Shown: one piece after another, positions 2,792-60,784 of the stretch | Layout: the number at the start of each line of letters is the position of its first letter | Numbering within the stretch: position 1 is the first letter of the stretch | Assembly (NCBI GenBank): GCA_949358305.1 | Contig: CASHSZ010000021.1 | Location: 1 to 61,553, forward strand | Direction of reading: 5' to 3' | Length of the DNA stretch: 61,553 nt | Source of the DNA: Strigamia acuminata | Lineage: Eukaryota > Arthropoda > Chilopoda > Geophilomorpha > Linotaeniidae | The notes under the pieces: model-generated | The model's input: only the letters and a program-made list of their open reading frames with translations | Told to the model about the DNA's origin: nothing | The model's database searches: none | Position numbers and translations under genes: made by a program

Positions 2792-2796
2792 GTAAT

Positions 2797-4188: not shown

Positions 4189-4193
4189 AGTAC

Positions 4194-6043: not shown

Positions 6044-6059
6044 GGGGTACCCGTTCCAA

Positions 6060-9194: not shown

Positions 9195-9206
9195 TTCTCG
9201 CCCTTC
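9195..9206 (-). promoter_or_regulatory. Copia-2 polypurine tract
   Basis: The minus strand reads gaagggcgagaa immediately before the 3' LTR, the expected primer for plus-strand DNA synthesis. Confidence 0.65.
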
Positions 9207-16240: not shown

Positions 16241-16393
16241 CATTAGAAAGGTCCAAAAGCAGTCCCAATGGCGAATTGGGAGAAATTTGCCATTGGGACT
16301 GCTTTGGACAGAATAAAGTCAAAATTCGCCTTTCGTCCGAATGGCCAGATTCGCCCTTGGACGATTCGCCGTTGGAACGGCACCCCAAGATTA

Positions 16394-16999: not shown

Positions 17000-17324
17000 T
17001 TAACCTTATGGCGCGCATGCGGATTTTGCGGAGTGCGAAAGGGACCCCATTTTTAACATTACGGCTGCCTATATGCTGATCCCCTGTTCGCAATTTTGCG
17101 GCGGATTTTGCGGATTTTGATCAATCCGCAGAAATTGCACTTTACAAGTTTATTTTATGATTTTGTACCATTTTGTAACTTAAAAACACAAATGAACAAT
17201 GTAATCACTCTATAATGCTGTTGGTTTAATCAGCACATTGTACTGCACAAAAACGCGCGCGCTCGCGATAGTACATCACCAAATGTACTTGCACTCACTC
17301 AAGTGGCATTTTTAGCCATTTTTC

Positions 17325-34400: not shown

Positions 34401-37400
34401 GGGTTAATTTGAGTCAAATAATTCATTCTGGGGGTTGTTTTGGGTTTTTTACAAGTGTGTTTTTGTAGTTTTTATTGGTTTCAAACATTGTCAATTCTTT
34501 ATACAAGTGTAACTTTCATTTCTCTGTATTTTGAGAACTTTGCATTGCAGCAAAGTTCATTTCTTGCCCCTTAATTATTGTGTAATTGTTGGTTTTCAAG
34601 CCCGTTTTTTAACAATAACTTTATTTGAAGTGCCTATTGTTTCAGGCACGTGCTTCCACGTGCCTTTTATTGTTGAGCAATTTCTTGGGCAGTTGCGCTC
34701 CTGTTGCTAGCATTGCCGCGCGTTCTCCGCGCGCGTACTCGCGTTTCGCATCACACACATTCGGATTCGATGGCCTATCGCGGCGGCACATTGTGTGGCA
34801 TAGCGCGGCACGTTGCAATTGCTAATGCTACGGTCGACGGCGATTCGCATGCGCTATCCGCTGCATCAAACCCCAAATCCCGACCCAAAAACCGCCAAAA
34901 TTACCCTCAACACACGCCAACAACCTTCCACCACTTAAATTACACCGGAAAAAAACAATTTCAAACCGAAAAATCAACAAAAAAGGCCAAAAAAATATTG
35001 CAAACAAAGAGAAAAGATCAATTATCGAGGCAAATCCCCACCACAAAACAACGCATCGCCAGTATACACTTAAGCGTACAGTGCACAACACTACTGTTTA
35101 TTTTCAATGATCCAATAAATAAAATTTGAAACAAAGTTGAGTGGAATTGTACGTTTCTTGTATATTAAAGTTTTTATTTTGTTTGTTTACACTTAATTTT
35201 TTTTTTCCATCATAGAATGGCGACTCGATACTTTTGTAGCTCGAATTCACTTCGTAAACGTGGTCGGTGTTCATCACGCGTCAATGCGCTCGTGCAATAG
35301 TATAGGCGCGCGTACGATTTGATGCGCGCAAAACTTGCAAAACTTGCACGGAATTTGGGCAATTTTTGACAAATTTCAGCAGATTTTTGCCTGTATTTGA
35401 CAAATTTCAGAAGATTTTTGCCTATATTTGACAAATTTCAGAAGATTTCCTCAATCCTCAAACATTTGCTGAAATTTCTCATAAAATTTCTAAAATTAAT
35501 TGAAATTTGTCTGAAATTTGTCTGGAATTTGTCAAATATTGTCAAAAATCCGTGGAAATTTGTCAAATACTGGCAAAAATCCATGTAAATTTGTCAAAAA
35601 TTGCCATAATTCGGTGCAAATTGTGTTAGATATTGGAAAAATTTATTTTAACGCTTCCAACGCGCCAGTAAATCGCGCGTGCACACGCATGGATTTTTCG
35701 TCATAGTTGGATGCGCGCAAACCTCACGTAACTTGCGCCAAAATTTGGCAATTTTGGACAAATTTCAGCAGATTTTTGCCAGTATTTGACAAATTTCCAC
35801 TGATTTTTGACAATATTTGACCCAACAACTGCGCCACGTTCCAGGCGCCGGTTTAGGCATTTTAGACCCGTTTTAGACCGTTTTAGATGGCGAAAACGTT
35901 CTCTCCATCATTTTCTACCCCTGGGTGAGGTTTTCAGCGTTCATGATTGATGAAAAAGCTGTTTTCTAACTAGCTGTCCCATTGCTAGTTTTGGCGTCAG
36001 GTTTTAGCAACCTTCCGATCCGTTCTCTGTCGTCTGCACGACCTCCAAGACCGTTTTAGGGTTAATTTGAGTCAAATAATTCATTCTGGGGGTTGTTTTG
36101 GGTTTTTTACAAGTGTGTTTTTGTAGTTTTTATTGGTTTCAAACATTGTCAATTCTTTATACAAGTGTAACTTTCATTTCTCTGTATTTTGAGAACTTTG
36201 CATTGCAGCAAAGTTCATTTCTTGCCCCTTAATTATTGTGTAATTGTTGGTTTTCAAGCCCGTTTTTTAACAATAACTTTATTTGAAGTGCCTATTGTTT
36301 CAGGCACGTGCTTCCACGTGCCTTTTATTGTTGAGCAATTTCTTGGGCAGTTGCGCTCCTGTTGCTAGCATTGCCGCGCGTTCTCCGCGCGCGTACTCGC
36401 GTTTCGCATCACACACATTCGGATTCGATGGCCTATCGCGGCGGCACATTGTGTGGCATAGCGCGGCACGTTGCAATTGCTAATGCTACGGTCGACGGCG
36501 ATTCGCATGCGCTATCCGCTGCATCAAACCCCAAATCCCGACCCAAAAACCGCCAAAATTACCCTCAACACACGCCAACAACCTTCCACCACTTAAATTA
36601 CACCGGAAAAAAACAATTTCAAACCGAAAAATCAACAAAAAAGGCCAAAAAAATATTGCAAACAAAGAGAAAAGATCAATTATCGAGGCAAATCCCCACC
36701 ACAAAACAACGCATCGCCAGTATACACTTAAGCGTACAGTGCACAACACTACTGTTTATTTTCAATGATCCAATAAATAAAATTTGAAACAAAGTTGAGT
36801 GGAATTGTACGTTTCTTGTATATTAAAGTTTTTATTTTGTTTGTTTACACTTAATTTTTTTTTTCCATCATAGAATGGCGACTCGATACTTTTGTAGCTC
36901 GAATTCACTTCGTAAACGTGGTCGGTGTTCATCACGCGTCAATGCGCTCGTGCAATAGTATAGGCGCGCGTACGATTTGATGCGCGCAAAACTTGCAAAA
37001 CTTGCACGGAATTTGGGCAATTTTTGACAAATTTCAGCAGATTTTTGCCTGTATTTGACAAATTTCAGAAGATTTTTGCCTATATTTGACAAATTTCAGA
37101 AGATTTCCTCAATCCTCAAACATTTGCTGAAATTTCTCATAAAATTTCTAAAATTAATTGAAATTTGTCTGAAATTTGTCTGGAATTTGTCAAATATTGT
37201 CAAAAATCCGTGGAAATTTGTCAAATACTGGCAAAAATCCATGTAAATTTGTCAAAAATTGCCATAATTCGGTGCAAATTGTGTTAGATATTGGAAAAAT
37301 TTATTTTAACGCTTCCAACGCGCCAGTAAATCGCGCGTGCACACGCATGGATTTTTCGTCATAGTTGGATGCGCGCAAACCTCACGTAACTTGCGCCAAA

Positions 37401-40400
37401 ATTTGGCAATTTTGGACAAATTTCAGCAGATTTTTGCCAGTATTTGACAAATTTCCACTGATTTTTGACAATATTTGACCCAACAACTGCGCCACGTTCC
37501 AGGCGCCGGTTTAGGCATTTTAGACCCGTTTTAGACCGTTTTAGATGGCGAAAACGTTCTCTCCATCATTTTCTACCCCTGGGTGAGGTTTTCAGCGTTC
37601 ATGATTGATGAAAAAGCTGTTTTCTAACTAGCTGTCCCATTGCTAGTTTTGGCGTCAGGTTTTAGCAACCTTCCGATCCGTTCTCTGTCGTCTGCACGAC
37701 CTCCAAGACCGTTTTAGGGTTAATTTGAGTCAAATAATTCATTCTGGGGGTTGTTTTGGGTTTTTTACAAGTGTGTTTTTGTAGTTTTTATTGGTTTCAA
37801 ACATTGTCAATTCTTTATACAAGTGTAACTTTCATTTCTCTGTATTTTGAGAACTTTGCATTGCAGCAAAGTTCATTTCTTGCCCCTTAATTATTGTGTA
37901 ATTGTTGGTTTTCAAGCCCGTTTTTTAACAATAACTTTATTTGAAGTGCCTATTGTTTCAGGCACGTGCTTCCACGTGCCTTTTATTGTTGAGCAATTTC
38001 TTGGGCAGTTGCGCTCCTGTTGCTAGCATTGCCGCGCGTTCTCCGCGCGCGTACTCGCGTTTCGCATCACACACATTCGGATTCGATGGCCTATCGCGGC
38101 GGCACATTGTGTGGCATAGCGCGGCACGTTGCAATTGCTAATGCTACGGTCGACGGCGATTCGCATGCGCTATCCGCTGCATCAAACCCCAAATCCCGAC
38201 CCAAAAACCGCCAAAATTACCCTCAACACACGCCAACAACCTTCCACCACTTAAATTACACCGGAAAAAAACAATTTCAAACCGAAAAATCAACAAAAAA
38301 GGCCAAAAAAATATTGCAAACAAAGAGAAAAGATCAATTATCGAGGCAAATCCCCACCACAAAACAACGCATCGCCAGTATACACTTAAGCGTACAGTGC
38401 ACAACACTACTGTTTATTTTCAATGATCCAATAAATAAAATTTGAAACAAAGTTGAGTGGAATTGTACGTTTCTTGTATATTAAAGTTTTTATTTTGTTT
38501 GTTTACACTTAATTTTTTTTTTCCATCATAGAATGGCGACTCGATACTTTTGTAGCTCGAATTCACTTCGTAAACGTGGTCGGTGTTCATCACGCGTCAA
38601 TGCGCTCGTGCAATAGTATAGGCGCGCGTACGATTTGATGCGCGCAAAACTTGCAAAACTTGCACGGAATTTGGGCAATTTTTGACAAATTTCAGCAGAT
38701 TTTTGCCTGTATTTGACAAATTTCAGAAGATTTTTGCCTATATTTGACAAATTTCAGAAGATTTCCTCAATCCTCAAACATTTGCTGAAATTTCTCATAA
38801 AATTTCTAAAATTAATTGAAATTTGTCTGAAATTTGTCTGGAATTTGTCAAATATTGTCAAAAATCCGTGGAAATTTGTCAAATACTGGCAAAAATCCAT
38901 GTAAATTTGTCAAAAATTGCCATAATTCGGTGCAAATTGTGTTAGATATTGGAAAAATTTATTTTAACGCTTCCAACGCGCCAGTAAATCGCGCGTGCAC
39001 ACGCATGGATTTTTCGTCATAGTTGGATGCGCGCAAACCTCACGTAACTTGCGCCAAAATTTGGCAATTTTGGACAAATTTCAGCAGATTTTTGCCAGTA
39101 TTTGACAAATTTCCACTGATTTTTGACAATATTTGACCCAACAACTGCGCCACGTTCCAGGCGCCGGTTTAGGCATTTTAGACCCGTTTTAGACCGTTTT
39201 AGATGGCGAAAACGTTCTCTCCATCATTTTCTACCCCTGGGTGAGGTTTTCAGCGTTCATGATTGATGAAAAAGCTGTTTTCTAACTAGCTGTCCCATTG
39301 CTAGTTTTGGCGTCAGGTTTTAGCAACCTTCCGATCCGTTCTCTGTCGTCTGCACGACCTCCAAGACCGTTTTAGGGTTAATTTGAGTCAAATAATTCAT
39401 TCTGGGGGTTGTTTTGGGTTTTTTACAAGTGTGTTTTTGTAGTTTTTATTGGTTTCAAACATTGTCAATTCTTTATACAAGTGTAACTTTCATTTCTCTG
39501 TATTTTGAGAACTTTGCATTGCAGCAAAGTTCATTTCTTGCCCCTTAATTATTGTGTAATTGTTGGTTTTCAAGCCCGTTTTTTAACAATAACTTTATTT
39601 GAAGTGCCTATTGTTTCAGGCACGTGCTTCCACGTGCCTTTTATTGTTGAGCAATTTCTTGGGCAGTTGCGCTCCTGTTGCTAGCATTGCCGCGCGTTCT
39701 CCGCGCGCGTACTCGCGTTTCGCATCACACACATTCGGATTCGATGGCCTATCGCGGCGGCACATTGTGTGGCATAGCGCGGCACGTTGCAATTGCTAAT
39801 GCTACGGTCGACGGCGATTCGCATGCGCTATCCGCTGCATCAAACCCCAAATCCCGACCCAAAAACCGCCAAAATTACCCTCAACACACGCCAACAACCT
39901 TCCACCACTTAAATTACACCGGAAAAAAACAATTTCAAACCGAAAAATCAACAAAAAAGGCCAAAAAAATATTGCAAACAAAGAGAAAAGATCAATTATC
40001 GAGGCAAATCCCCACCACAAAACAACGCATCGCCAGTATACACTTAAGCGTACAGTGCACAACACTACTGTTTATTTTCAATGATCCAATAAATAAAATT
40101 TGAAACAAAGTTGAGTGGAATTGTACGTTTCTTGTATATTAAAGTTTTTATTTTGTTTGTTTACACTTAATTTTTTTTTTCCATCATAGAATGGCGACTC
40201 GATACTTTTGTAGCTCGAATTCACTTCGTAAACGTGGTCGGTGTTCATCACGCGTCAATGCGCTCGTGCAATAGTATAGGCGCGCGTACGATTTGATGCG
40301 CGCAAAACTTGCAAAACTTGCACGGAATTTGGGCAATTTTTGACAAATTTCAGCAGATTTTTGCCTGTATTTGACAAATTTCAGAAGATTTTTGCCTATA

Positions 40401-43400
40401 TTTGACAAATTTCAGAAGATTTCCTCAATCCTCAAACATTTGCTGAAATTTCTCATAAAATTTCTAAAATTAATTGAAATTTGTCTGAAATTTGTCTGGA
40501 ATTTGTCAAATATTGTCAAAAATCCGTGGAAATTTGTCAAATACTGGCAAAAATCCATGTAAATTTGTCAAAAATTGCCATAATTCGGTGCAAATTGTGT
40601 TAGATATTGGAAAAATTTATTTTAACGCTTCCAACGCGCCAGTAAATCGCGCGTGCACACGCATGGATTTTTCGTCATAGTTGGATGCGCGCAAACCTCA
40701 CGTAACTTGCGCCAAAATTTGGCAATTTTGGACAAATTTCAGCAGATTTTTGCCAGTATTTGACAAATTTCCACTGATTTTTGACAATATTTGACCCAAC
40801 AACTGCGCCACGTTCCAGGCGCCGGTTTAGGCATTTTAGACCCGTTTTAGACCGTTTTAGATGGCGAAAACGTTCTCTCCATCATTTTCTACCCCTGGGT
40901 GAGGTTTTCAGCGTTCATGATTGATGAAAAAGCTGTTTTCTAACTAGCTGTCCCATTGCTAGTTTTGGCGTCAGGTTTTAGCAACCTTCCGATCCGTTCT
41001 CTGTCGTCTGCACGACCTCCAAGACCGTTTTAGGGTTAATTTGAGTCAAATAATTCATTCTGGGGGTTGTTTTGGGTTTTTTACAAGTGTGTTTTTGTAG
41101 TTTTTATTGGTTTCAAACATTGTCAATTCTTTATACAAGTGTAACTTTCATTTCTCTGTATTTTGAGAACTTTGCATTGCAGCAAAGTTCATTTCTTGCC
41201 CCTTAATTATTGTGTAATTGTTGGTTTTCAAGCCCGTTTTTTAACAATAACTTTATTTGAAGTGCCTATTGTTTCAGGCACGTGCTTCCACGTGCCTTTT
41301 ATTGTTGAGCAATTTCTTGGGCAGTTGCGCTCCTGTTGCTAGCATTGCCGCGCGTTCTCCGCGCGCGTACTCGCGTTTCGCATCACACACATTCGGATTC
41401 GATGGCCTATCGCGGCGGCACATTGTGTGGCATAGCGCGGCACGTTGCAATTGCTAATGCTACGGTCGACGGCGATTCGCATGCGCTATCCGCTGCATCA
41501 AACCCCAAATCCCGACCCAAAAACCGCCAAAATTACCCTCAACACACGCCAACAACCTTCCACCACTTAAATTACACCGGAAAAAAACAATTTCAAACCG
41601 AAAAATCAACAAAAAAGGCCAAAAAAATATTGCAAACAAAGAGAAAAGATCAATTATCGAGGCAAATCCCCACCACAAAACAACGCATCGCCAGTATACA
41701 CTTAAGCGTACAGTGCACAACACTACTGTTTATTTTCAATGATCCAATAAATAAAATTTGAAACAAAGTTGAGTGGAATTGTACGTTTCTTGTATATTAA
41801 AGTTTTTATTTTGTTTGTTTACACTTAATTTTTTTTTTCCATCATAGAATGGCGACTCGATACTTTTGTAGCTCGAATTCACTTCGTAAACGTGGTCGGT
41901 GTTCATCACGCGTCAATGCGCTCGTGCAATAGTATAGGCGCGCGTACGATTTGATGCGCGCAAAACTTGCAAAACTTGCACGGAATTTGGGCAATTTTTG
42001 ACAAATTTCAGCAGATTTTTGCCTGTATTTGACAAATTTCAGAAGATTTTTGCCTATATTTGACAAATTTCAGAAGATTTCCTCAATCCTCAAACATTTG
42101 CTGAAATTTCTCATAAAATTTCTAAAATTAATTGAAATTTGTCTGAAATTTGTCTGGAATTTGTCAAATATTGTCAAAAATCCGTGGAAATTTGTCAAAT
42201 ACTGGCAAAAATCCATGTAAATTTGTCAAAAATTGCCATAATTCGGTGCAAATTGTGTTAGATATTGGAAAAATTTATTTTAACGCTTCCAACGCGCCAG
42301 TAAATCGCGCGTGCACACGCATGGATTTTTCGTCATAGTTGGATGCGCGCAAACCTCACGTAACTTGCGCCAAAATTTGGCAATTTTGGACAAATTTCAG
42401 CAGATTTTTGCCAGTATTTGACAAATTTCCACTGATTTTTGACAATATTTGACCCAACAACTGCGCCACGTTCCAGGCGCCGGTTTAGGCATTTTAGACC
42501 CGTTTTAGACCGTTTTAGATGGCGAAAACGTTCTCTCCATCATTTTCTACCCCTGGGTGAGGTTTTCAGCGTTCATGATTGATGAAAAAGCTGTTTTCTA
42601 ACTAGCTGTCCCATTGCTAGTTTTGGCGTCAGGTTTTAGCAACCTTCCGATCCGTTCTCTGTCGTCTGCACGACCTCCAAGACCGTTTTAGGGTTAATTT
42701 GAGTCAAATAATTCATTCTGGGGGTTGTTTTGGGTTTTTTACAAGTGTGTTTTTGTAGTTTTTATTGGTTTCAAACATTGTCAATTCTTTATACAAGTGT
42801 AACTTTCATTTCTCTGTATTTTGAGAACTTTGCATTGCAGCAAAGTTCATTTCTTGCCCCTTAATTATTGTGTAATTGTTGGTTTTCAAGCCCGTTTTTT
42901 AACAATAACTTTATTTGAAGTGCCTATTGTTTCAGGCACGTGCTTCCACGTGCCTTTTATTGTTGAGCAATTTCTTGGGCAGTTGCGCTCCTGTTGCTAG
43001 CATTGCCGCGCGTTCTCCGCGCGCGTACTCGCGTTTCGCATCACACACATTCGGATTCGATGGCCTATCGCGGCGGCACATTGTGTGGCATAGCGCGGCA
43101 CGTTGCAATTGCTAATGCTACGGTCGACGGCGATTCGCATGCGCTATCCGCTGCATCAAACCCCAAATCCCGACCCAAAAACCGCCAAAATTACCCTCAA
43201 CACACGCCAACAACCTTCCACCACTTAAATTACACCGGAAAAAAACAATTTCAAACCGAAAAATCAACAAAAAAGGCCAAAAAAATATTGCAAACAAAGA
43301 GAAAAGATCAATTATCGAGGCAAATCCCCACCACAAAACAACGCATCGCCAGTATACACTTAAGCGTACAGTGCACAACACTACTGTTTATTTTCAATGA

Positions 43401-44770
43401 TCCAATAAATAAAATTTGAAACAAAGTTGAGTGGAATTGTACGTTTCTTGTATATTAAAGTTTTTATTTTGTTTGTTTACACTTAATTTTTTTTTTCCAT
43501 CATAGAATGGCGACTCGATACTTTTGTAGCTCGAATTCACTTCGTAAACGTGGTCGGTGTTCATCACGCGTCAATGCGCTCGTGCAATAGTATAGGCGCG
43601 CGTACGATTTGATGCGCGCAAAACTTGCAAAACTTGCACGGAATTTGGGCAATTTTTGACAAATTTCAGCAGATTTTTGCCTGTATTTGACAAATTTCAG
43701 AAGATTTTTGCCTATATTTGACAAATTTCAGAAGATTTCCTCAATCCTCAAACATTTGCTGAAATTTCTCATAAAATTTCTAAAATTAATTGAAATTTGT
43801 CTGAAATTTGTCTGGAATTTGTCAAATATTGTCAAAAATCCGTGGAAATTTGTCAAATACTGGCAAAAATCCATGTAAATTTGTCAAAAATTGCCATAAT
43901 TCGGTGCAAATTGTGTTAGATATTGGAAAAATTTATTTTAACGCTTCCAACGCGCCAGTAAATCGCGCGTGCACACGCATGGATTTTTCGTCATAGTTGG
44001 ATGCGCGCAAACCTCACGTAACTTGCGCCAAAATTTGGCAATTTTGGACAAATTTCAGCAGATTTTTGCCAGTATTTGACAAATTTCCACTGATTTTTGA
44101 CAATATTTGACCCAACAACTGCGCCACGTTCCAGGCGCCGGTTTAGGCATTTTAGACCCGTTTTAGACCGTTTTAGATGGCGAAAACGTTCTCTCCATCA
44201 TTTTCTACCCCTGGGTGAGGTTTTCAGCGTTCATGATTGATGAAAAAGCTGTTTTCTAACTAGCTGTCCCATTGCTAGTTTTGGCGTCAGGTTTTAGCAA
44301 CCTTCCGATCCGTTCTCTGTCGTCTGCACGACCTCCAAGACCGTTTTAGGGTTAATTTGAGTCAAATAATTCATTCTGGGGGTTGTTTTGGGTTTTTTAC
44401 AAGTGTGTTTTTGTAGTTTTTATTGGTTTCAAACATTGTCAATTCTTTATACAAGTGTAACTTTCATTTCTCTGTATTTTGAGAACTTTGCATTGCAGCA
44501 AAGTTCATTTCTTGCCCCTTAATTATTGTGTAATTGTTGGTTTTCAAGCCCGTTTTTTAACAATAACTTTATTTGAAGTGCCTATTGTTTCAGGCACGTG
44601 CTTCCACGTGCCTTTTATTGTTGAGCAATTTCTTGGGCAGTTGCGCTCCTGTTGCTAGCATTGCCGCGCGTTCTCCGCGCGCGTACTCGCGCGTTTCGCA
44701 TCACACACATTCGGGTTCAATGGCCTATCGCGGCGGCACATTGTGTGGCATAGCGCGGCACGTTGCAATT
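31476..44770. repeat. 1,658-bp tandem array, 8 units
   Basis: Units begin at 31476 (1,687-bp variant), then every 1,658 bp from 33163; the last ends at 44770. The first and last units carry the same private differences as the first and last units of copy 1. The interior units appear identical to each other by eye. The array therefore expanded or shrank by whole units after the two copies separated. Confidence 0.95.
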
Positions 44771-47700
44771 ACGTGACGTGGCACGTTGCTGTTACGTGAC
44801 GCGATAGCCAGTATTTAAGCAGGGGATTCCATCATCGTTTACACAAATGCGCATTGCAACGTGGAGGCGCATTCGAGTCCTTTTCCCAAGCGTTGAAAAA
44901 GGACAAAACTCGTATTCGATTCGAAAGCGAATCGAATACGATTTTTGTCCTTTTTCAACGCAAAATTGTATTCGATTCGCTTTCGAATCGAATACGAGTT
45001 TTGCCCTTCTTCAACGCGAAATCGTATTCGACTCGCTTTCGAGTCGAATGCGAATTTTTTCCTTCTTCAACGCGAAATCGTATTCGACTCGCTTTCGAGT
45101 CGAATGCGAATTTTGCCCTTCTTCAACGCGAAATCGTATTCGACTCGTTTTCGAGTCGAGTACGAATTTTGCCCTTCTTCAACGCGAAATCGTATTCGAC
45201 TCGTTTTCGAGTCGAATGCGAATTCGTATTCGACTCGTTTTCGAGTCGAGTACGAATTTTGCCCTTCTTCAACGCGAAATCGTATTCGACTCGTTTTCGA
45301 GTCGAATGCGAATTTTGCCCTTCTTCAACGCGAAATCGTATTCGACTCGTTTTCGAGTCGAATGCGAATTTTGCCCTTCTTCAACGCGAAATCGTATTCG
45401 ACTCGTTTTCGAGTCGAGTACGAATTTTGCCCTTCTTCAACGCGAAATCGTATTCGACTCGTTTTCGAGTCGAATGCGAATTTTGCCCTTCTTCAACGCA
45501 AAATCGTATTCGCCTCGTTTTCGAGTCGAATGCGAATTTTGCCCTTCTTCAACGCGAAATCGTATTCGACTCGTTTTCGAGTCGAATGCGAATTCGTATT
45601 CGACTCGTTTTCGAGTCGAGTACGAATTTTGCCCTTCTTCAACGCGAAATCGTATTCGACTCGTTTTCGAGTCGAATGCGAATTTTGCCCTTCTTCAACG
45701 CGAAATCGTATTCGACTCGTTTTCGAGTCGAATGCGAATTTTGCCCTTCTTCAACGCGAAATCGTATTCGACTCGTTTTCGAGTCGAATGCGAATTTTGC
45801 CCTTCTTCAACGCGAAATCGTATTCGACTCGTTTTCGAGTCGAATGCGAATTCGTATTCGACTCGTTTTCGAGTCGAGTACGAATTTTGCCCTTCTTCAA
45901 CGCGAAATCGTATTCGACTCGTTTTCGAGTCGAATGCGAATTTTGCCCTTCTTCAACGCGAAATCGTATTCGACTCGTTTTCGAGTCGAATGCGAATTTT
46001 GCCCTTCTTCAACGCGAAATCGTATTCGACTCGTTTTCGAGTCGAGTACGAATTTTGCCCTTCTTCAACGCGAAATCGTATTCGACTCGTTTTCGAGTCG
46101 AATGCGAATTTTGCCCTTCTTCAACGCAAAATCGTATTCGCCTCGTTTTCGAGTCGAATGCGAATTCGTATTCGACTCGTTTTCGAGTCGAGTACGAGAT
46201 AGTCGATGACCCGTTCCCGGACTTTGACTCGTACGACTCGTATTCGAGATGTATTCGAGATGTATTCGAATCGTATTCGAGTCGCATTCGAGATGGTCGA
46301 TGATTTCCACTCGCTCGTATACGCGTTGTATACGAGCTCGTATTTTGATCGTAATCGTAAACGAATCGTTTACAAGTCGTATACAAGTCGTATACGACGT
46401 GTATACACCTCGTATACGAACGAAGTTTGTGAAAACACAATTTCCAAATAAGACGTATGTGACTACTATGTGTTTTCATGTCGTAGTAAGTATCCGGTGG
46501 ATTTTCCAAACTTCGTTCGTATACGAGGTGTATACACGTCGTATACAACTTGTATACGACTTGTAAACGATTCGTTTACGATTACGATCAAAATACGAGC
46601 TCGTATACAACGCGTATACGAGCGAGTGGAAATCATCGACCATCTCGAATGCGACTCGAATACGATTCGAATACATCTCGAATACATCTCGAATACGAGT
46701 CGTACGAGTCAAAGTCCGGGAACGGGTCATCGACTATCTCGTATTCGACTCGAAAACGAGTCGAATACGATTTCGCGTTGAAGAAGGGCAAAATTCGCAT
46801 TCGACTCGAAAACGAGTCGAATACGATTTCGCGTTGAAGAAGGGCAAGATTCGCATTCGACTCGAAAACGAGTCGAATACGATTTCGCGTTGAAGAAGGG
46901 CAAAATTCGCATTCGACTCGAAAACGAGTCGAATACGATTTCGCGTTGAAGAAGGGCAAAATTCGTACTCGACTCGAAAACGAGTCGAATACGAATTCGC
47001 ATTCGACTCGAAAACGAGTCGAATACGATTTCGCTTTGAAGAAGGGCAAAATTCGTACTCGACTCGAAAACGAGTCGAATACGATTTCGCGTTGAAGAAG
47101 GGCAAAATTCGCATTCGACTCGAAAGCGAGTCGAATACGATTTCGCGTTGAAGAAGGGAAAAATTCGCATTCGACTCGAAAGCGAGTCGAATACGATTTC
47201 GCGTTGAAGAAGGGCAAAATTCGCATCCGACTCGAAAGCGAGTCGAATACGATTTCGCGTTGAAGAAGGGCAAAATTCGCATTCGATTCGAAAGCGAATC
47301 GCATACGATTTCGCGTTGAAAAAGGACAAAACTCGTATTCGATTCGAAAGCGAATCGCATACGATTTCGCGTTGAAAAAGGACAAATTTCGCTTGGGAAA
47401 AGGACTCGAATGCGCCTCCACGTTGCAATGCGCATTTGTGTAAACGATGATGGAATCCCCTGCTTAAATACTGGCTATCGCGTCACGTAACAGCAACGTG
47501 CCACGTCACGTAATTGCAACGTGCCGCGCTATGCCACACAATGTGCCGCCGCGATAGGCCATTGAACCCGAATGTGTGTGATGCGAAACGCGCGAGTACA
47601 CGCGCGGAGAACGCGCGGCAATGCTAGCAACAGGAGCGCAACTGCCCAAGAAATTGCTCAACAATAAAAGGCACGTGGAAGCACGTGACTGAAACAATAG

Positions 47701-48640: not shown

Positions 48641-50090
48641 CAAGAATGATGTATTTAATAATTGTTTTTGCATTAGATATGTGTTTAATTCGTTTTACCT
48701 CGGTTTGTACGGTTCTTGCGCGTAGTGCGCACGTTCAACACGCGGCCACGCGCGTACATCGCGCGTGTTGCGAGCAGGACGCAACAAAAGTTTGAGAGAC
48801 TCGCATTTTACCAAGTCCCCAACTTATTTTACAGTTTTAGTTTAGCTTACCAACTCGCTTGGTAATTTCTGGATCCTGTTTAAGTGTTTCGTCGGGTTTT
48901 GAGCCCATAAACCCGTCTTTTTCCTTGGTAAGCGATTGCGTCGTCTGCTCAGAGCAACTGGCTTTAAGCGGAGATCGCTTACACGAGTCTGGAATGAGCG
49001 CTTATCACCGCATTCGGCTCCAGTCTTCGTTTCTCGTTGAAAGTTAGCTTGTTGATTCGGGTTTTGGGCGACATTGACTAAAAAGACCTCGGGGAATCGT
49101 TCCCACCACTCGGTTTAGTCGTTTTCGAGACCCACGACCTCGAAAACGAAGTTAGAAGTGGCTCAAGGCCACTAGCGTGTCTGGCAGATAGCCATTTTGG
49201 TGATTTACGGGCGTCGGGCCCTTGTTCTTTGTTTCCCGTCTTTGCTCCTTTGTTTTTATTTGGTATTCAAGGTTCCTAAGCCTACAGTAGATTGGGATTA
49301 AATTCCCATGAAGATTTATTAAGTATTCATTGGTAAAAACGAATATTTCCGCCGGCGCGTTTCTCTCATAGGTTTCGGTTCGCTCGAATCTCATTTTCGA
49401 GCGACCCAGCGAATGCGCCAAGTTACAGGCGCCAGCTTAGCAGTTTTAGACTCGTTTTCGACCGTTCTAGTGTCAAAAAACGCGTAGAGCACGTTTTGCG
49501 ACCTTTGGAAGGGCTTTTCCGACACCTAAGTGGTCGGAAAAGTGCTCTTCTGAGTTAAGACTCCTTTTGGCATTTTAGCGTCAGCATAAGAAATTCCTCA
49601 AACTTTTATTGAAATCTCTCAAAAATTTCTAAAATTAATTGAAATTTGTCTGAAAATTGTCAAATATTGGCAAAAATCTGCAGAAATTTGTCAAATACGC
49701 GATCGCATTGCGACAGAAAGTCGTTTACGACTCCAATACGCACCCGTGCGTGTTTGTATCGCAACACGAAACTCAAACGCGCCACCGCGTTGCAAGACAA
49801 CCAAATTTACAAACGCAAACGCGCATTTGAGACAAAAACGAGTTTATTTTATTCACTCTCGCTTGATCCCCCTTCATCGCGCCTCGTTGCTCCTGTGAAA
49901 AAAATATATGAGAATGCACAGAAATGAACCTTCCAATACTTAAATGAAAATTGGCAACCTTGACACAAAACAGTCTATCGACACTCCCAACACCACCCCG
50001 GACATTTTTCGGAAGAGTATGGTCCACCCGGAATTCCCAGAATAGTCACCCCCGAAATGCGGATTTCGCGGAAGCCAATCCGCGAAAAGG
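48641..50090. other. Tail of the giant element, copy 2
   Basis: Near-identical to 27881-29336 and ending at TTAA 50091-50094. No gene is supported. Confidence 0.5.
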
Positions 50091-50094
50091 TTAA

Positions 50095-50720
50095 AGTCTT
50101 TGTAGTTTTACTGCCCTTCATGCTTTTTGATGTGTTCAACACGTCACTGTAAGACGGCTTCGTAATTTCGCTCGCCTGCGTTACGCATTCACTCGAGTTA
50201 GAATTAGATAAAACGCTATTGTTAACAATATCAACATTTTCAGTAACACTTAATTGGTTAGTAACCGGATTACTTATGTCAGGTGCTTCCGCATGCGTCG
50301 GAATTGCACTTGCATTTACAGAAGGAACCGCAATCTGACAAGAACTCTTGTACATTCTATCCGACTGACGCATGGCTGTCAGTATTGGTTCCGTAATCCG
50401 TTGTTTGAAAATGACCATTTTCCCTTCACCAACTCGGGTTATATACCCAGCCTCATCAGTGCGACCGAGGGAAATCAAATTTTTAGTAAAATTTGGTGCG
50501 TAAAACACATTCTTTAATATGAATGGGTGCCCTTGAGATTTATCCCTTGATTCGAGCTTTATATCTCCTACCCCATCAATTTTGGATGAACCCTCACCCA
50601 ATCGCACTGAATAATTCGAAAGAGGCTTATAATTCACAAAACCATGTTTAGTGAAGGTAAAATGGTCCGTGGCACCAGTGTCCACGTACCACGCCATGTC
50701 TTGCACCCAGATGATGTTAC
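50095..50720 (-). pseudogene. Copia-1 protease region
   Basis: Copia aspartic protease with the active-site block WYVDTGATDHFTF, a following FILKNVFYAPNFTKNLISLGR block typical of copia protease/pre-integrase, and a Ser/Thr-rich connector. Protease would cleave Gag-Pol. Downstream the frame runs into the giant TTAA element at 50091; the integrase that should follow is at 16999. Upstream, a frameshift near 50705-50720 separates it from Gag. Confidence 0.9.
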
Positions 50721-50789
50721 AAATGAAGACACGGTTGTCGTTGATTGTCCAATAGTCTGCTGAAGGGATGTGTAGAATCCTTCCAGTTC

Positions 50790-51643
50790 CTCAGAAGAGC
50801 TCAGGTTAGCTTTCCTTCCCCGTGCACGGCCACGGCCTTTGCCGCGCCCACGAGACTGAGAAATGTTCGATGCAGATTTGGTCGGCACAATCGTAAAGCC
50901 CTGTTTCGATGAAGGGCAATCGCGTGAAAAGTGTCCTTTTCAGCCGCAGTTGTAGCAAACAATTCCTTTTTGCTGTGACCGTTGTGGGTTCGTCGCATAA
51001 GCTCCAGTTGCAGATGCAGTCGCATCCCCGGCGCAGTCCCACCATGGGTCCTGTTATACTCAGCAAGGAGCCTTTCTTTGACTTTCGCGACCGTGAAGTC
51101 GGCTTTGTCCCAGTGGTACACGATGGATTTTAGAGCCTCGTATTCAGGCCCGAGGAAATCCAAATATTGGAACGCGATTTCCTTTTCCGTTAAAGTAATA
51201 TCCACGTCCTTTAACTCTATCGCCTTCCTGTCCACCCTAGAGGTGAACACGACCATGTCGTCCCCTGGAAGCATTTGGAGCTGTAAAAACTCCCGGCGTA
51301 GCCTGGCTTGTCGCGCCATCGTGGTCGGCTGGTACGCCGTTTTTAACGCGTCCCACGCTCCCTTTGCTGTTTTATGTGCAACAGCAACTCCTTTTTGCGC
51401 TTCTGTGCAGCCGAGACAAATGGAGGAACGTGCACGGGATTCACGCGCCTGGAAATCGCGTTTCTCCTTCGGAGAGGCCGTTACGGCCAATGCTGGCTCA
51501 GTTCCAACAACGTGGCTCCAGACTCCTTGGTGCTCTAAATAGAGCTGCATATCTACTGCCCATGAGTCATAATTGTTGCCATCAAGTTTGCGAATGTTTA
51601 CATTGAATGGCTTGGAAAAATCTTCCATATTTTCACTAGCCAT
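50790..51643 (-). pseudogene. Copia-1 Gag, broken
   Basis: The copia-type Gag start is taken at the ATG of MASENMEDF (51643), not at the upstream codon of the longer ORF. It contains an LDGNNYDSWAVDMQLYL block, the AKGAWDALKTAY block and a FTSRVDRKAIEL helix typical of the UBN2/gag_pre family. A frameshift around 51000-51040 separates it from the CCHC zinc knuckle (CYNCG...GHFSRDC, about 50957-50916), which itself has a TGA stop at 50942-50940. A basic RGRGKGRGRARGR tail follows. Gag would form the particle; this copy cannot. Confidence 0.88.
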
Positions 51644-52760
51644 GATGCGATGCGGAGCACAATACACAAAATCACTTAGAATCACAACACTTGCAAAATA
51701 TAACACTTAACCCACCAAAAATTAGGCGAAAAATAATGCAATTCCACCCGGGGTACAGCTCAATAAGTGAGCACAACTTCTCCGACTAGTCGCTACAAGG
51801 ACCTCCGACCGACACACCTGGGGTCGCGGGAAAATCCCCTTGCTTCGAGCAAGCCTAGCCGAAAATAAGACGACACTAGGCGAATGCCTAAAGGGTGCCG
51901 AATATATTAAAGGGCCCAAACAAAACCTTAATAATATTCACAAATAATTTCGAACCCAAATATATACACTAAAATGATGTGAAGATGGCAAGTTGTGATG
52001 TTTTCAGTGCTGGAAATCGTTGGCTTTCACTTGTGCACCTGGCACAAGGCTTAACCGGTCCCAGCGATGCGCAGATACACTTCACGTGCAAATCCGCGAT
52101 GCGTTTCGGCTCGTCGCACGAAACGCGTCCAAAAATGGAAAATATCGGTCAAAACTGACCCGTACCGATGCTCTGCTCGTTGTACGAACGTCGTACGTTC
52201 GTATCCTGCTCGATATTGGCGAGCGACGTCGCCAAAATGTTGCGGAAATCAATCCCGATCGCCGCCGACGAAAATCGCTTCGTTTTCGCCGAAATCTTAT
52301 TCAAATCGTCCCGAAACCAGTCCCAATCAATTCCTTGGGTCCTCTTATGGTTCCTCGTCGTTAATTCCAGCGTCGGGATCCACACGTTGACTCGATGACA
52401 GCCCGAATCCGTCCTCAAACACAAGCCGCACTGGGCGCCGCCATTTTGAAATGACGTGTCATCGTACGGATGAAAACAAGAAAAATGGCTTATTATACGC
52501 CGAAATAAATGCAAAAAGTACTTCACTGTGTTCCTGCTGTTTATACAGCTGATTCTACGGTGATTCAACACCGTTTGTGGTCGAAATTCGTCCGAAACGA
52601 TCAATCCTGCTTCGGGTCGCAATTCGCGGACTTCACTGCTCGGCGACGTGCGGGAAACGTTTCGTATCGCCCGCCCCTCGTTTTCCGTGCGTCGTGGCCG
52701 CTCCAGACGTGGAAAATCGCCGAGAAAGTATGAATTTCGACAGGAACTCACCCACGCAAA
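51644..52760 (-). other. Copia-1 5' leader
   Basis: About 1.1 kb lies between PBS and gag, long for a copia leader. It contains a 200-codon minus-strand ORF (52149-52751) without any domain I recognise. Probably untranslated leader; no other feature seen. Confidence 0.5.
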
Positions 52761-52776: not shown

Positions 52777-53339
52777 CTTGTAGGCCATTAAATCAATAAA
52801 GTGAGTCCAATCCTGATTTTAGTCTTTTGCATTACAAGCACAAATTGTGCCGCCATCTTTATTGCAGTGGAAAAACATAACATGTGGTTTGAGGTTATTT
52901 GACCTCACAAACTATAGGGAGAACAAATCAATACTTCATTTGGTTGATTTGTCCTGTACACTATTAAAATATAAACACAACTTACAAGGGGAGGGCACCA
53001 ATAAGCTATCACAGATTGTTGTAATATTAAACAAGAAGGATTGTTATATCATGCTGAATGAGACCCTAAAATAATTTCATTCCATAAACAGCCAACAATG
53101 CAAACAATGAGCTGAAAGTTGGCACTATTTTGTCTGTGTATACATCAAATCTGAGCAATCAGGCCTAGTGTATGAATACTGTAAACAACAGTTGCTAGGT
53201 AAAAAATAGTTCCAAGATCCAAGTTCAATTTTATCATTTGAGATTCAATGATGTCATTTTCTCTTTTGATATCACATGACATATGACATCAGAACTTTGT
53301 TCAACAACATGACTGTCTTCATGAAGACAATAATAGTTT

Positions 53340-53655: not shown

Positions 53656-54160
53656 AACTATTATTGTCTTCATGAAGACAGTCATGTTGTTGAACAAAGT
53701 TCTGATGTCATATGTCATGTGATATCAAAAGAGGAAATGACATCATTGAATCTCAAATGATAAAATTGAACTTAGATCTTGGAACTATTTTTTACCTAGC
53801 AACTGTTGTTTACAGTATTCATACACTAGGCCTGATTGCTCAGATTTGATGTATACACAGACAAAATAGTGCCAACTTTCAGCTCATTGTTTGCATTGTT
53901 GGCTGTTTATGGAATGAAATTATTTTAGGGTCTTATTCAGCATGATATAACAATCCTTCTTGTTTAATATTACAACAATCTGTGATAGCTTATTGGTGCC
54001 CTCCCCTTGTTAGAACAGAACAAATTCCTATAATACACAATGCTCATTTGAGCAGACGACGATTAAATAAGTCATTATATGGAGGGAAATCAGTTGTGGT
54101 ACATACACACGCAATTTATAAAAACAATAGCAACTGATTTACAATTCCGGGACATGATAC

Positions 54161-54344
54161 AATAAACATATACAAAAAAATTCATACATCCTGTTTATAA
54201 TGAACTTGATTTTATAAAATAGACTGTACAAAGAAATACAAAGCGCAATCCATGTGAAGACAACAAAACGACATATTTGATGTGTAAAAATGTTTGTGTA
54301 CAAAACAATTTATTTAGAAGCATTAACTGCAGGTATGCTAGGCA
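54161..54344 (+). repeat. Right copy of duplicated gene A segment
   Basis: Repeats 2797-2985 (intron end, exon, 12 bases of intron), then continues into gene A intron sequence (atggacac). The junction with the truncated LTR shares a few bases (aat), as in microhomology joining. Confidence 0.85.
54223..54332 (+). CDS. DEG/ENaC gene A, exon 9 equivalent (right copy)
   Basis: Same 110-nt exon as 2864-2973, with intact acceptor (ataaaatag) and donor (gtatgc). It is 125 bp from the last exon, the spacing expected of the original gene (gene B intron 9 is 98 bp). Splicing 2791 to 54223 gives the normal frame through a 51.4-kb intron that would remove all transposons and the left exon copy. Confidence 0.75.
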
Positions 54345-54457: not shown

Positions 54458-54836
54458 ATTACCTTATATGACAGCATCAAATTTATCAGATTGCAACACT
54501 ACAAAAGATGTTACTACCACTCATCTGATGTACTTCAATAACTACGCTTCGAATCAAGAACAGTGCAAATGTAAACGACCTTGCGAAAATAAGTTTTACC
54601 AAACTATTGTGCATGGGAGTAAGTTACCAGTCAATTTTTACACGTTTGCGACTTTTCAATTAGTTGATAGTTTGATCGAGACCATAGAAGAGAAACAGAA
54701 ATATCCAATGTCTCAATTCTTAAGCGATATCGGCAGCATTCTAGGATTAGGTTTGGGAATGTCAATACTATCTTTCTACATTTGCATTCTAAACAGTTTG
54801 AATTGGTTCAGAGTCTGCTTGAGTAATCGTGTGTAA
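54458..54836 (+). CDS. DEG/ENaC gene A, last exon with pore-forming TM2
   Basis: The acceptor tcgcttttcag is followed by codon completion from exon 9 and the final 126 residues to a TAA stop. It carries an NQEQCKCKRPCEN Cys-rich block (end of the extracellular domain), an ETIEEKQKYPMSQ pre-TM2 segment and the TM2/selectivity region LSDIGSILGLGLGMSILSFY, in which GMS matches the family G/S-x-S filter. A short cytosolic tail follows. DEG/ENaC subunits form trimeric sodium channels in the plasma membrane. The frame is intact and close to gene B exon 10, so the gene was functional recently or still is; the 5' part is outside the window. Confidence 0.85.
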
Positions 54837-55114
54837 TTTGTGGGATTGTTTAAAACACCGCACAACTCATTTTCAACATTCATCCTGCTGTCAATAATCG
54901 AATTTGCAATCGCAAATCATCACAAAAAATTCTTTTGTGATAAGTCAAATGCCTTTTGTAAACAGCACATCTCATGGCATCTGCAGCAGGGGCCACAATT
55001 ATACTAGAAGTAGGAATTAGTGGGTAGAACCTTAACCAGTGTGGTATTTCTACGTGTAACATATATAAAGCCGGCACAACGTCGATCAGCACATATTGAA
55101 ATTGTTTATGGCTT
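54837..55114 (+). other. 3' flank of gene A
   Basis: No ORF of note on the plus strand. A ~100-bp stretch (ttttgtgataagtcaaatgcc..., about 54930-55000) recurs after the pseudogene exon at about 55555-55620, so the last exon and its 3' flank were duplicated in tandem. Confidence 0.5.
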
Positions 55115-55440
55115 GCAGTTGACTTTATCACGTTTATGAACGTTCGATTAGCTGATAGTTTCATCGAGGTTATCGAAGAGAAGGAAAAATATCCAATATC
55201 AGGGCTGGACTGGGTAAAAATTTAGTACCGGGAAATCTGGATGGATCAGGCCATCGGGACAAGCTATGGTGGGCCAGGGACGGGCCACCTGAAATTTCCC
55301 GGCAGCCCGCCGGGCCAGTCCAGCACCGTCCAATATCTCAATTGTTAAGCGATATCGGCAGCATTCTAGAATTAACGTCGTGAACGTCATTATTATCGTT
55401 CGACATTTGCATTCTAAACACTTTCAGAATCTGTTTGGTT
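55115..55440 (+). pseudogene. DEG/ENaC last-exon pseudogene
   Basis: A decayed copy of the gene A last exon. Residues equivalent to the RLxDSFIEVIEEKEKYPIS stretch are readable, then interrupted by a MITE (55200-55328), after which QLLSDIGSILEL is followed by a TGA in the middle of TM2, at the position of the GxS filter. Further homologous but disrupted sequence continues to the end of TM2. Earlier parts of the exon are missing or diverged. Confidence 0.85.
55200..55328. mobile_element. 129-bp hAT-type MITE
   Basis: It starts CAGGGCTGGACTGG and ends CCAGTCCAGCACCG, flanked by the 8-bp direct repeat tccaatat (55192-55199 and 55329-55336). The 8-bp target duplication and CAG start are typical of hAT elements. 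No ORF. Confidence 0.9.
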
Positions 55441-56942: not shown

Positions 56943-59900
56943 TTAATTTTCAAATCGATTACCCAAGCAGACTCTGAACCAATTAAAACTGTTTAAAATG
57001 CAAATGTAGAACGATAATATTGACATTCCCAAAGTTAATCCTAGAATGCTGCCAATATCGCTTAACAATTGAGACATTGGATATTTCTGCTGCTCTTCCA
57101 TGGTCTCGATGAAATTATCAACTAATCGAAGGGTAATAAATGTGTAGAAATTAACTGGCAGCTTATTCCCACGAAAAATAGTTTTGTAAAAAAAATTTTC
57201 ACAAGGTTGTTTACATTTGCACTGTTTTTGATTAGAGTCGTAGTTATTTAAGTACATTAGATGAGCAGTAGTAACATCGCTTGTAGTGTTGCAATTTGGC
57301 AAATTTGATGCTGACATATAGGGTAATCTGAAAAGAAAAAATAAAACATTAACGGAAAGATCACAACAAAATATGAAAATCTAAATGTATGCGAAATCAG
57401 CAAATGTGTCAACTATCTGCCGTACCTGCAGTAAATACTTTGAAATAAATTGGTTTGCATGCAAGCATTTTTACACTTGAGATAAGCAGTTTTGACTTCT
57501 TCACATGGATTGCGCTTCGTATTTCTTCGTACAGTCTATTTGATAAAATCAAGGTCAGCATAACATGATTTACCGTATTCGTACACAGAATATTGTTTAT
57601 TTTGTTACCTTAAATATTTGAAGTTTTGCCTCATTCAACCATCCATACATTAATTTTAACGGTTCCAGTTGGTTAACTTCCTCTTCTGGGTTATTTAGAA
57701 ATAACTGAACAATAAAATAAATTCAAAAATATGTAGCCTTATTTTAGGTTAAATAAAATTTTTTCATTCCACCCAGTGCAACATTGCAACATTGCGACAG
57801 AAATCCAATTGATTTTAGCTTACCTTTATATGCTGGCAACATACTTCAGGAGGATTTAAGAATTCAAACGCAACATGGAGGACTACCATTAAGTTGGTTG
57901 ATTTTTCTAGAAGAAAAGGAGATTGAATCCCAAGAGTGTTTATGAAATTACCAGCTTTACGTATACTGTACATACCTGAATTTATTTGTGTACAATGGCC
58001 AAAGGGAAGGGGAATGAGAATTTTTGAAGTGTTAAGTATTGTTTTATATCCAAGAAAATACTATAAATATCAAATAATTCAGTCTAATTTTCATGTCATG
58101 ATTATATTTAGGAATATACCGTATTAGTTATTTCATTATTAAAGGAGACTGTGTCGTGGACATTGAGTTTTTCCCAGATATCATCCAATGATAAATTGTC
58201 GTTGAACAATTGCCACGGTGATACATTATTGCAGGTTTTCTTAGTTTGTTTCATCCAATTCAATCTGGCTTCATCAATATCATCATCTTGTGTTTCGCCA
58301 CAGACTGTGACGGTTGGATATTGGGTAAAGCGTCGTGGAACTATTCTCACAATTTTTGTTACTGGTTCTTCAATGTAGTAGTTTACACGAATTTGCAAAC
58401 AATACAAAGTGATTCCCGAGCAAATTATAACCAGTATTTTCTTAAAATCAAATGAAATTATATTTCTTTTAATTTGCTCTTGACTCGCAATTATATTCTT
58501 TGTGCATTTGTCGTAAACACGGTGGATCTTATTAATCGGTTTTTTTCTCCGAATGTTTGCTAGATACCAAGCGATTTCAAGCAACGAGGTTATCGATAGA
58601 CCGAGAAATAGGCCCAGATTTCCTCCTAAATCTGATAGTAAAGCAATAACATCGTATGTGAACCGTTCTTCATACACGTTGATTTTATCATTAGTTATCG
58701 CTAGTGACACAGATATAATATTTTTATCATCTGCTATGCCCGCATCAGTGTATGGTATAAATATAAAATGTTTGCATGGACGTCGACAGAGACAATCAGT
58801 AATTGGATCTGTTGTATCAATTAAACGATTTGCAATACCATACAGCTCGTGTGTCTTATCTGAACATTTACAAAGTGGTAAATCGGTCTTTGTAAAGGGA
58901 AAGCTTACAAAGGAAATGTTTTCTTATTTTTCTGATTGCTGTTACTATAAATCACGTATTCTCACCTGCACGTCAATTGTTCTTTAAATTTTTTCATCAA
59001 ACATCCACGATAGCATTCTTTGTATTCATTTTCACTGGAGCATGAACTCTTAGATGAATTCAAAAAAATGAACTATAATTTAATAAGTAATTAATATAAA
59101 TATTCCTTGCTAGTTTTATCAGACAATTTAAAAGTTTACTTTGTTAAAACTCAAATCTATTTTTAATGTGGCCCCAAGGTTTGGTGTTGCTACATGAATG
59201 TTTCTTCCAAAATCATAAAACGACATGTATACCTAAGCGAAAATAGAAAGAAAAAATAACAAAAACTGTATTTTCTGATACATTATACTGGGTACTGTAC
59301 TACGTACTAGATACGGAGCTATTGGGCATACGTAATCATATGTTTTTTCGATATTTGCTGTCAATACTTTCCGGACAAATGATTTGCTAGTAGTTTGAGC
59401 TGTACCAATGAATGATATTTGTGTTATCAAGTGGATTATGTTTTTGAAGTTAAACTTCTTTTGGCACAGGTGAATCCAAACGAGATATCACACGAGACGT
59501 GTCACATCACGAGATGTCACGAAAAGCACTGCTGTCTCTGGGGAAACTGGAATAAAACATGATCACGTCGGGCCTCAATAATACACGCGATATTCTTAGC
59601 TACGACGTCGCGATTATGCATACTGTTTGCCTGCATAATCGCGTTTTTGGTAACACATCTCGTTTGATATCTCGTGATCTATAACGTGGTTAGTTTTTGG
59701 ACCAAAAATTAGCTGTTGTGTGTTGGTAAAAAACAAAATGATTTTTGGTAAAAAACAAAATGATTTTTGGTAAAAAACAAAATGATTTTTGGTAAAAAAC
59801 AAAATAATTTTTGGTAAAAAACAAAATGATTTTTGGTAAAAAAGAAAATAATTTTTGGTAAAAAACAAAATAATTTTTGATAAAAAACAAAATGATTTTT

Positions 59901-60784
59901 GGTAAAAAACAAAATGATTTTTAGGAAAAAACAAAATGATTTTTGGGAAAAAACAAAATAATTTTTGGAAAAAAACAAAATGATTTTTGGGAAAAAACAA
60001 TAATTTTGGCCCAAAAATAAAATTATTTTGGTCTCAGAGTACTGAAATTTACAAATTAAGATTACAAAATTACAATTTACATGTCAAGAAGTTTAACGTC
60101 TACCGTGTGGTCTTAAGCACACATTCTTTTTTTTTTGTTTATAGTTACAAAATTGAAATGTTGAGCATATTCCATATGAAGTGTCAGTTTCCGTCAGAAC
60201 AGCTGTTTTGTTTGTAAATCCCTAAACGAATTAAATTAAGACTAATTATTTATAAAAATATTTTTTATTTTTTCTACCTTCATTTTAATGCCGACTATCT
60301 CTTTGGTCAAATTAGTCGCTCTCCAAAGTTCATCCATATCATAATTTGAATTTACCATCAGATTTTTGACCATGTTTGTACATTCATATGGGACTGAACC
60401 GTAATCAATAGGTCCAGTAGTCTTGATGTTCTCATAAGTTTTATTCCAAAGCCTGGCCAATTCTTTTGTGTTGCCACTGCAGATCATCAAATCTGGTAGC
60501 ACAAACTCTTCCGATTTGGTCGTCACATCAACAGCCGTAGGATAACATAAGTAATGCATTACTCTATCGTATGCCTGATAAGTGAGCATGCATGTACAAA
60601 ATAGAAGCAAAAACAACCAAGATGTGTGACGCCTGCTCCAATGATTTCTACTGTTTACGAAATCTTCCAGACCTATTAAACCGCAGTTTGGTTTATTGGC
60701 ATCATCTTTCATCATAAGTTGAATTGCAGAGCGTAGTTTGGTTAATCTTAGCATATTTCTTCTCAACAAGTGATTTCCCTGCAT
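56943..60784 (-). CDS. Double-module DEG/ENaC channel (two subunit modules in one chain), gene B
   Basis: Ten exons on the minus strand with GT-AG introns and matching phases: 60784-60278, 60221-60149, 59399-59332, 59232-59140, 59048-58966, 58903-58120, 58060-57824, 57704-57609, 57535-57426, 57327-56943 (811 aa). Module 1: TM1 ~54-76, an LPDLMICSGN block (~96), Cys-rich ECYRGC and LCRRPC, TM2 ~360-391 with filter GLS (376-378). A ~38-residue cytosolic linker leads to module 2: TM1 ~430-450, YPTVTVCGE (470-478, the family FPxVTxC), Cys-rich CEEVKTAYLKCKNAC and CKCKQPCEN, TM2 ~758-797 with filter GMS (784-786). Each ectodomain is short for the family. The N-terminal HG gating motif is not preserved (CGLIGLE). 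The start is Met at 60784; an in-frame stop lies upstream, but a further 5' exon is possible. Convergent with gene A. Confidence 0.8.
58120..58903 (-). other. Gene B exon 6: TM2 of module 1 continuous with TM1 of module 2
   Basis: A 784-nt exon without stop codons. It runs from the Cys-rich PLCKCSD/DCLCRRPC region of module 1 through TM2 (LLSDLGGNLGLFLGLSITSL), a basic linker (ANIRRKKPINK) and TM1 of module 2 (KKILVIICSGITLYCLQIR) to its YPTVTVCGE block. Because no intron or stop separates the two modules, they must be translated together if the exon is used. Confidence 0.88.
59461..59700. repeat. Inverted-repeat-rich patch in gene B intron 2
   Basis: Contains a hairpin with 12-bp arms cgcgattatgca/tgcataatcgcg (about 59610-59644), and cacgagatatca-type motifs facing each other near both edges (about 59475 and 59660). 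It may be a small MITE; boundaries and target duplication are not clear. Confidence 0.35.
59705..60015. repeat. 22-bp minisatellite in gene B intron 2
   Basis: About 13 tandem units with core aacaaaatgatttttgg. They explain why intron 2 (749 bp) is far longer than the other introns of the gene (56-119 bp). ORFs of repeated F/K-rich peptide here are artefacts. Confidence 0.9.

Follow-up and report, generated by a model that had tools for sequence, protein, structure and literature searches.

A centipede DEG/ENaC gene with two channel modules in one reading frame and its large genomic family

Introduction

BRTNaC1 and PDPNaC1 are DEG/ENaC channels of centipedes, and PDPNaC1 has three homologous subunits with two transmembrane (TM) helices each (PMC12714832; this and the other papers cited here are drawn on as excerpts). 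Both are single modules, with chains of 431 and 421 residues, respectively. ASIC and ENaC subunits follow the same two-TM plan, with a G-x-S filter and a match to the Pfam family ASC, and their channels are trimers of separate chains, each holding one module. Here we describe gene B, which differs from all of these in that it is predicted to encode two modules per chain. The gene lies on the minus strand, at 60784–56943, of a 61,553-nucleotide stretch of DNA from Strigamia acuminata (contig CASHSZ010000021.1 of assembly GCA_949358305.1), the whole of which we call the window. We find that it belongs to a very large family of genes with the same fused exon, and we consider how such double chains might be accommodated in a trimeric channel.

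Results

One open reading frame joins two DEG/ENaC modules

The modules of gene B meet in exon E4 (58120–58903, minus strand), which encodes part of the Cys-rich region and TM2 of module 1, a linker, and TM1 with the first part of the ectodomain of module 2. The stop-to-stop frame around this exon (58108–58923, minus strand, 271 codons) contains two Pfam ASC stretches (E = 3.4e-13), so that in place of one module with two TM segments per chain we find two modules in one frame, and the proposal of the first-pass annotation that the modules are joined inside one uninterrupted exon was confirmed. The frame runs from TM2 of module 1 (58594–58626, minus strand; GGNLGLFLGLS, with a GLS filter) through a basic, Lys/Arg-rich linker of about 42 residues that is predicted to be cytosolic (58438–58560, minus strand) into TM1 of module 2, and between TM2 and TM1 the window gene has neither an in-frame Met nor a stop. 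When the sequence was resampled 5000 times under an order-1 Markov model, E4 never stayed open, and the part from TM2 to TM1 did so in 3% of trials. Because 3% of resamplings stay open, the open frame of the window linker is weak evidence when taken alone, and it is the paralogues that carry the weight.

The search for two Pfam ASC matches that had been suggested was run, in addition to the E4 frame, on a 788-residue draft protein (the spliced protein without the small exon E1c), which matched ASC (PF00858) with E = 1.1e-35 in three stretches, the best at residues 408–767. Among solved structures, BRTNaC1 is the best relative of each module (E = 4.1e-16 for module 1 without E1c and 4.8e-15 for module 2); the similarity is strong in the Cys-rich and TM2 part and weak in the TM1 part (8.5 and 9.1 bits). 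PDPNaC1 was matched by module 1 only (E = 1.7e-13). On the draft protein, a simple hydropathy threshold of 1.5 is exceeded by three of the four TM segments. The exception is TM1 of module 1, which is assigned from a Pfam match that starts at profile position 4. By homology, then, each chain would have four TM segments, and the likely topology is four membrane crossings with the linker in the cytosol.

Both modules carry the expected G-x-S filter (GLS in module 1, GMS in module 2), and conserved cysteines before TM2 were found in both by alignment with BRTNaC1, with CLCRRPC in module 1. The two FPxVTxC-type blocks described earlier are present, one in each module, but they follow this pattern only loosely: module 1 has LPDLMIC and module 2 has YPTVTVC. 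In DEG/ENaC proteins an N-terminal His-Gly motif precedes TM1. By eye this motif is absent before either TM1 of gene B, its presence in every known member being an assumption.

The linker frame is kept and its flanks are under purifying selection

In 35 of 35 aligned loci the reading frame passes through the linker without a stop or frame break, with a linker length of 39–54 residues and a net charge of +2 to +14. We compared 14 paralogues in pairs. Upstream of the linker the median ratio of nonsynonymous to synonymous substitution (dN/dS) was 0.27, and all 91 pairs fell below 1; downstream of it the median was 0.36, and 90 of 91 pairs did so. Thus, both flanks of the linker are under purifying selection, and the linker itself is not. 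In a neutral star-tree simulation without indels, the probability of 14 independent stop-free linker copies was 0.0015 or less. Since the frame is kept in every aligned locus and neutrality so rarely produces this outcome, we consider it unlikely that the linker is non-coding.

Gene B is one of some 200 or more fused loci

We searched the assembly (237,517,015 bases in 157 contigs, of which the window is the whole of contig C32) with the window fused exon (146 matches) and with two divergent members (135 matches each), and took 133, 128, and 60 rows, respectively, leaving out partial pieces and, in the third search, places judged to be listed already. This yielded at least 237 distinct places on ten contigs with TM2, linker, and TM1 in one frame, at least 211 of them without an in-frame stop; these numbers include decayed copies and likely assembly duplicates, and because only the best candidates were scored, other places may have been missed. 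Among the matches listed, fused-exon places fall on C1 (117), C6 (61), C8 (15), C4 (12), C3 (11), C9 (10), and C11 (8), with one each on C32 (the window gene), C5, and C50. Likely duplicates are the C32 place, which repeats one on C1, and some identically scored rows on C3, C4, and C6.

In the nearest subfamily (at least 50% identity), 81 of the 88 fused exons listed are full length. For 56 of these 81, an exon like E1 lies upstream and one like E8 downstream, both on the same strand and no more than 8 kb away, judged from the best 150 matches listed for each of the two exons. The two-module layout was read exon by exon in L034 (where E5 was not found), L041, and L043; L044 has most exons of this layout, and its last exon looks broken. 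No three-module gene was seen among the matches listed, in which the nearest fused exons are at least 3.5 kb apart. We conclude that gene B is one member of a very large double-chain family of some 200 loci or more. The central claim of the first-pass annotation, two DEG/ENaC modules in one polypeptide, is therefore upheld by the two ASC stretches in the E4 frame, the at least 237 fused-exon places, the dN/dS below 1 on either side of the linker, and the frame kept in 35 of 35 loci.

Single-module layouts also occur. L002, read by eye, has a TM1 exon and a TM2 exon ending in a stop, followed by the TM1 of the next gene. An array of ASC TM2 exons with 2.1–3.7 kb spacing occupies C4:7358317–7376957, where L007 and L008 stop soon after TM2 and look single-module-like. 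Beyond this genome, collections of viral, bacterial, and archaeal contigs held no relatives. PF00858 exceeded its cut-off in 1 of 14 control genomes, that of Thermotoga maritima, which is unexpected for an animal family.

The TM2 tree favors a single fusion

A tree of 61 TM2 domains included 36 module-1 rows, in which one gene appears twice (L009 and L045), and 16 module-2 rows, in which the last exon of a second window gene, gene A, appears from both C32 and C1. All 16 module-2 domains fell in one group (support 100/97), as did 35 of the 36 module-1 domains (support 96/81). Forcing all 36 module-1 rows together gave a tree that was not rejected by the approximately unbiased test (p-AU 0.28). 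A single origin is favored and unproven, because long branches meet in the TM2 tree; the data would fit one old fusion followed by massive duplication.

The introns of module 2 have phases 0,0,0,2 and those of module 1 have phases 0,1,0,0,2, the same set plus one extra, as would be expected if both modules descend from one similar gene. The phase-2 introns of the two modules share one alignment column, and the others lie in poorly aligned parts.

The two modules differ in the lower pore

An acidic residue at the putative position of E18′ of ASIC1a is present in 33 of 36 module-1 rows (29 Glu, 4 Asp) and in 1 of 16 module-2 rows; we mapped this position by its spacing from the G-x-S filter and from the ASIC1 sequence. 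Likewise, GG precedes the filter in 34 of 36 module-1 rows and in none of the 16 module-2 rows. In ASIC1a each E18′ adds to selectivity, loss of two of the three reduces it drastically, and E18′A homomers are non-functional (PMC5449180). Given this behavior and the loss in module 2, a pore of module 2 only would be expected to be poor or silent, while a pore containing a single module 2 could function. By analogy with ASIC1a, pores built of several module 2s appear disfavored.

Gene model of gene B

Ten exons with GT–AG borders and consistent phases give one protein, and the ten-exon layout of the first-pass annotation was confirmed. The chain is probably 819 residues long rather than the roughly 811 proposed earlier, a length that we obtained only with the donor of the third exon, E1c, at 59332. 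In E1c, most of the paralogues read remain similar as far as ..C..PYL, where a GT comes next, so we prefer the donor at 59308, which gives about 819 residues, and reject 59332. The presence of E1c in paralogues also rules out a suspicion raised by our first models, that module 1 lacks a piece.

All exons are on the minus strand. In module 1, E1 (60278–60784) provides the start Met, the N terminus, and TM1; its open frame matches Pfam ASC with E = 5.5e-9 and has paralogous exons in the genome. It is followed by E1b (60149–60221; the GICSTF strand, phases 0/1, also present in paralogues), E1c (59308–59399), E2 (59140–59232; phases 0/0), and E3 (58966–59048; Cys-rich part, phases 0/2). After the fused E4, module 2 continues through E5 (57824–58060; the FGHC strand, phases 0/0), E6 (57609–57704; phases 0/0), and E7 (57426–57535; Cys-rich part, phases 0/2) to E8 (56943–57327), which encodes the remaining Cys-rich part, TM2 with the GMS filter, the C terminus, and the stop, with a frame that matches Pfam ASC at E = 1.3e-11. 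E1b, E2, E3, E5, E6, and E7 are placed by splice signals and phases. Several splice sites of the gene score weakly, the E1b donor most so, on a rough matrix. The intron between E1b and E1c contains 12.6 copies of a 22-bp tandem repeat (59723–60000; Tandem Repeats Finder).

Gene A and the rest of the window

The first-pass annotation had cast gene A, on the plus strand, as a possible single-subunit partner of gene B, and this did not hold. The only gene A exons found in the window resemble E6, E7 (twice), and E8 of module 2: E6 (2696–2788) is 58% identical to its gene B counterpart over 31 residues, E7 (54223–54332) has an identical second copy at 2864–2973, and the last exon (54459–54836) is 79.8% identical to E8 over 124 residues. 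Over E7–E8, dN/dS between genes A and B is about 0.34 (NG86) or 0.50 (YN00). Positions 2000–3000 of the window match C1:5419424–5420424 at 100%, and upstream on C1 lies L074, with E1, E1b, E1c, E2, E3, a fused E4, and the first 30 residues of E5, followed by repeats. Because the matching C1 stretch carries E1–E3 and a fused E4 upstream, gene A reads as the 3′ end of another two-module gene, which is broken up by repeat insertions and may be damaged; it was discarded as a single subunit.

A segment of about 540 bp that contains the gene A E7 exon occurs twice (2806–3345, and 52779–52987 plus 54010–54344), with roughly 1 kb inserted into the second copy. Between genes A and B, a third copy of the last exon of module 2 is present in broken form (55112–55437). 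The window contig repeats C1 around 5.396–5.422 Mb; two stretches, of 3783 and 3024 bases, were compared and proved 100% identical. A 150-codon frame recurs every 1658 bp, two times at 20632–22742 and seven times at 33019–43419, and matching coordinates of the window and C1 are offset by about 33 kb, roughly the length of twenty such units; the contig looks like an alternative copy of the C1 region with a longer tandem array. Named by eye, a Ty1/copia-like frame of 1378 codons occupies 9205–13341 on the minus strand, with copia-like pieces at 3475–6131, 16173–17120, and 49975–51706. Satellite-like blocks with several frames open on both strands lie at 24123–26728 and 44800–47482.

Discussion

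We propose that two adjacent single-module genes of similar exon structure fused, most likely once, so that the final exon of one continued in frame into the initial exon of the next, and that later duplication of the fused gene produced some 200 or more loci. Each resulting chain would make four membrane crossings, its modules connected by a basic tether of about 40–55 residues in the cytosol. Because DEG/ENaC channels are trimers, whole double chains cannot fill a pore evenly. The likeliest form is a trimeric pore with at most one module 2, which could be built from a double chain and a separate single-module subunit, or from two double chains of which one module stays outside the pore. Module 1 would keep the canonical pore, and module 2, without the lower-pore acidic residue and GG, would serve mainly as a partner subunit. 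That a dimeric ASIC construct is listed with measured values (PMC4529235) makes a double chain without a separate partner conceivable. To this reading as a whole, a large family of DEG/ENaC double chains from one fusion with at most one module 2 per trimeric pore, we give a probability of roughly 0.6.

Several results count against it. An AlphaFold prediction of E4 alone reached a predicted local distance difference test score of only 33. The median dN/dS of the linker is 1.12, with values below 1 in 37 of 89 pairs among the 14 paralogues, as for non-coding DNA, although such a ratio would fit a free tether equally well. Of the 35 aligned linkers, 14 contain one or more Met, so internal starts are possible at those loci. 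Finally, not one (0%) of 200 bootstrap trees united all 36 module-1 rows, since the long branch of L041 is placed among other terminal exons.

The linker findings bear on two explanations in which the modules part company. If the linker of one precursor were cut after translation, two ordinary subunits would arise in a 1:1 ratio, and a linker sequence that is hardly constrained would be no surprise; we nevertheless regard this as improbable, since linker length stays within 39–54 residues, an NPGP motif was seen by eye in none of the 35 linkers, and the linker is predicted to lie in the cytosol, away from furin-type proteases. Still harder to sustain is the idea that promoters, splice sites, or poly(A) sites within E4, or an internal start, yield two proteins and that the open frame is incidental. 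E4 does contain ATTAAA at 58473 and three splice-like sites (on the same rough matrix, by which some accepted sites of gene B score no better), and the Met-containing linkers would supply starts, but between TM2 and TM1 the window gene offers neither a stop that would end module 1 nor an in-frame Met that would start module 2. A linker free of stops and frame breaks at all 35 loci is also improbable in the light of the neutral simulation.

Other arrangements keep the chain intact and change the number of modules. Three double chains could form a double trimer, with the module 1s making one pore and the module 2s a second trimer alongside, connected by three cytosolic linkers. The linkers of all 35 aligned loci are in principle long enough, and both modules keep their cysteines and a G-x-S or G-x-C filter; with 15 of 16 module-2 rows lacking the lower-pore acidic residue, all 16 lacking GG, and ASIC1a E18′A homomers being non-functional (PMC5449180), we think this unlikely, even though the second trimer might be non-conducting. 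The ASIC structures that have been solved are trimers, and we judge a four-module channel made of two double chains highly improbable. One study reported that the tetramer of ASIC1a predominated after cross-linking at the cell surface (PMC4529235), but centipede PDPNaC1 has three homologous subunits (PMC12714832).

The family probably serves in ligand or chemosensory detection. Tentatively, and with rather less conviction, we suggest a receptor family of at least 200 loci of two-subunit concatemers, in which a fixed unlike pair (one module conducting, the other pore-degenerate) would combine with a shared single-module subunit to complete each pore, much as insect odorant receptors do with their co-receptor. 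If the role is sensory, this would be a receptor class of unusual architecture.

Pickpocket genes and mite ENaCs show the same lineage-specific growth of DEG/ENaC. The Tetranychus count is 136. Drosophila melanogaster has 31 members (PMC3583452), and chemoreceptor roles have been shown or suggested for arthropod expansions (PMC7738191); the excerpts of the literature examined make no mention of a double-module member in the pickpocket or mite expansions. Nor was a natural double-module DEG/ENaC protein found in the literature searched, likewise represented by excerpts and with subscription papers mostly outside its coverage. The nearest parallels are made in the laboratory: trimeric and tetrameric ASIC concatemers are functional, and pH and amiloride values are given for a dimeric one as well (PMC4529235), with further functional trimeric concatemers described elsewhere (PMC10329638, PMC5449180). 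Like these, gene B would place whole subunits in one chain, but it is natural and genome-encoded, and its modules have diverged. Subunit stoichiometry and order, usually studied through such artificial constructs, thereby become testable in natural proteins, and the loss of the lower-pore acidic residue from module 2 makes a direct prediction for pore composition. In K2P channels, two-pore channels, and four-domain cation channels, pore modules are likewise fused into one chain. There, two or four modules split a tetrameric pore evenly, whereas two modules do not divide a trimer, and some 200 two-module loci suggest that evolution has solved this uneven fit.

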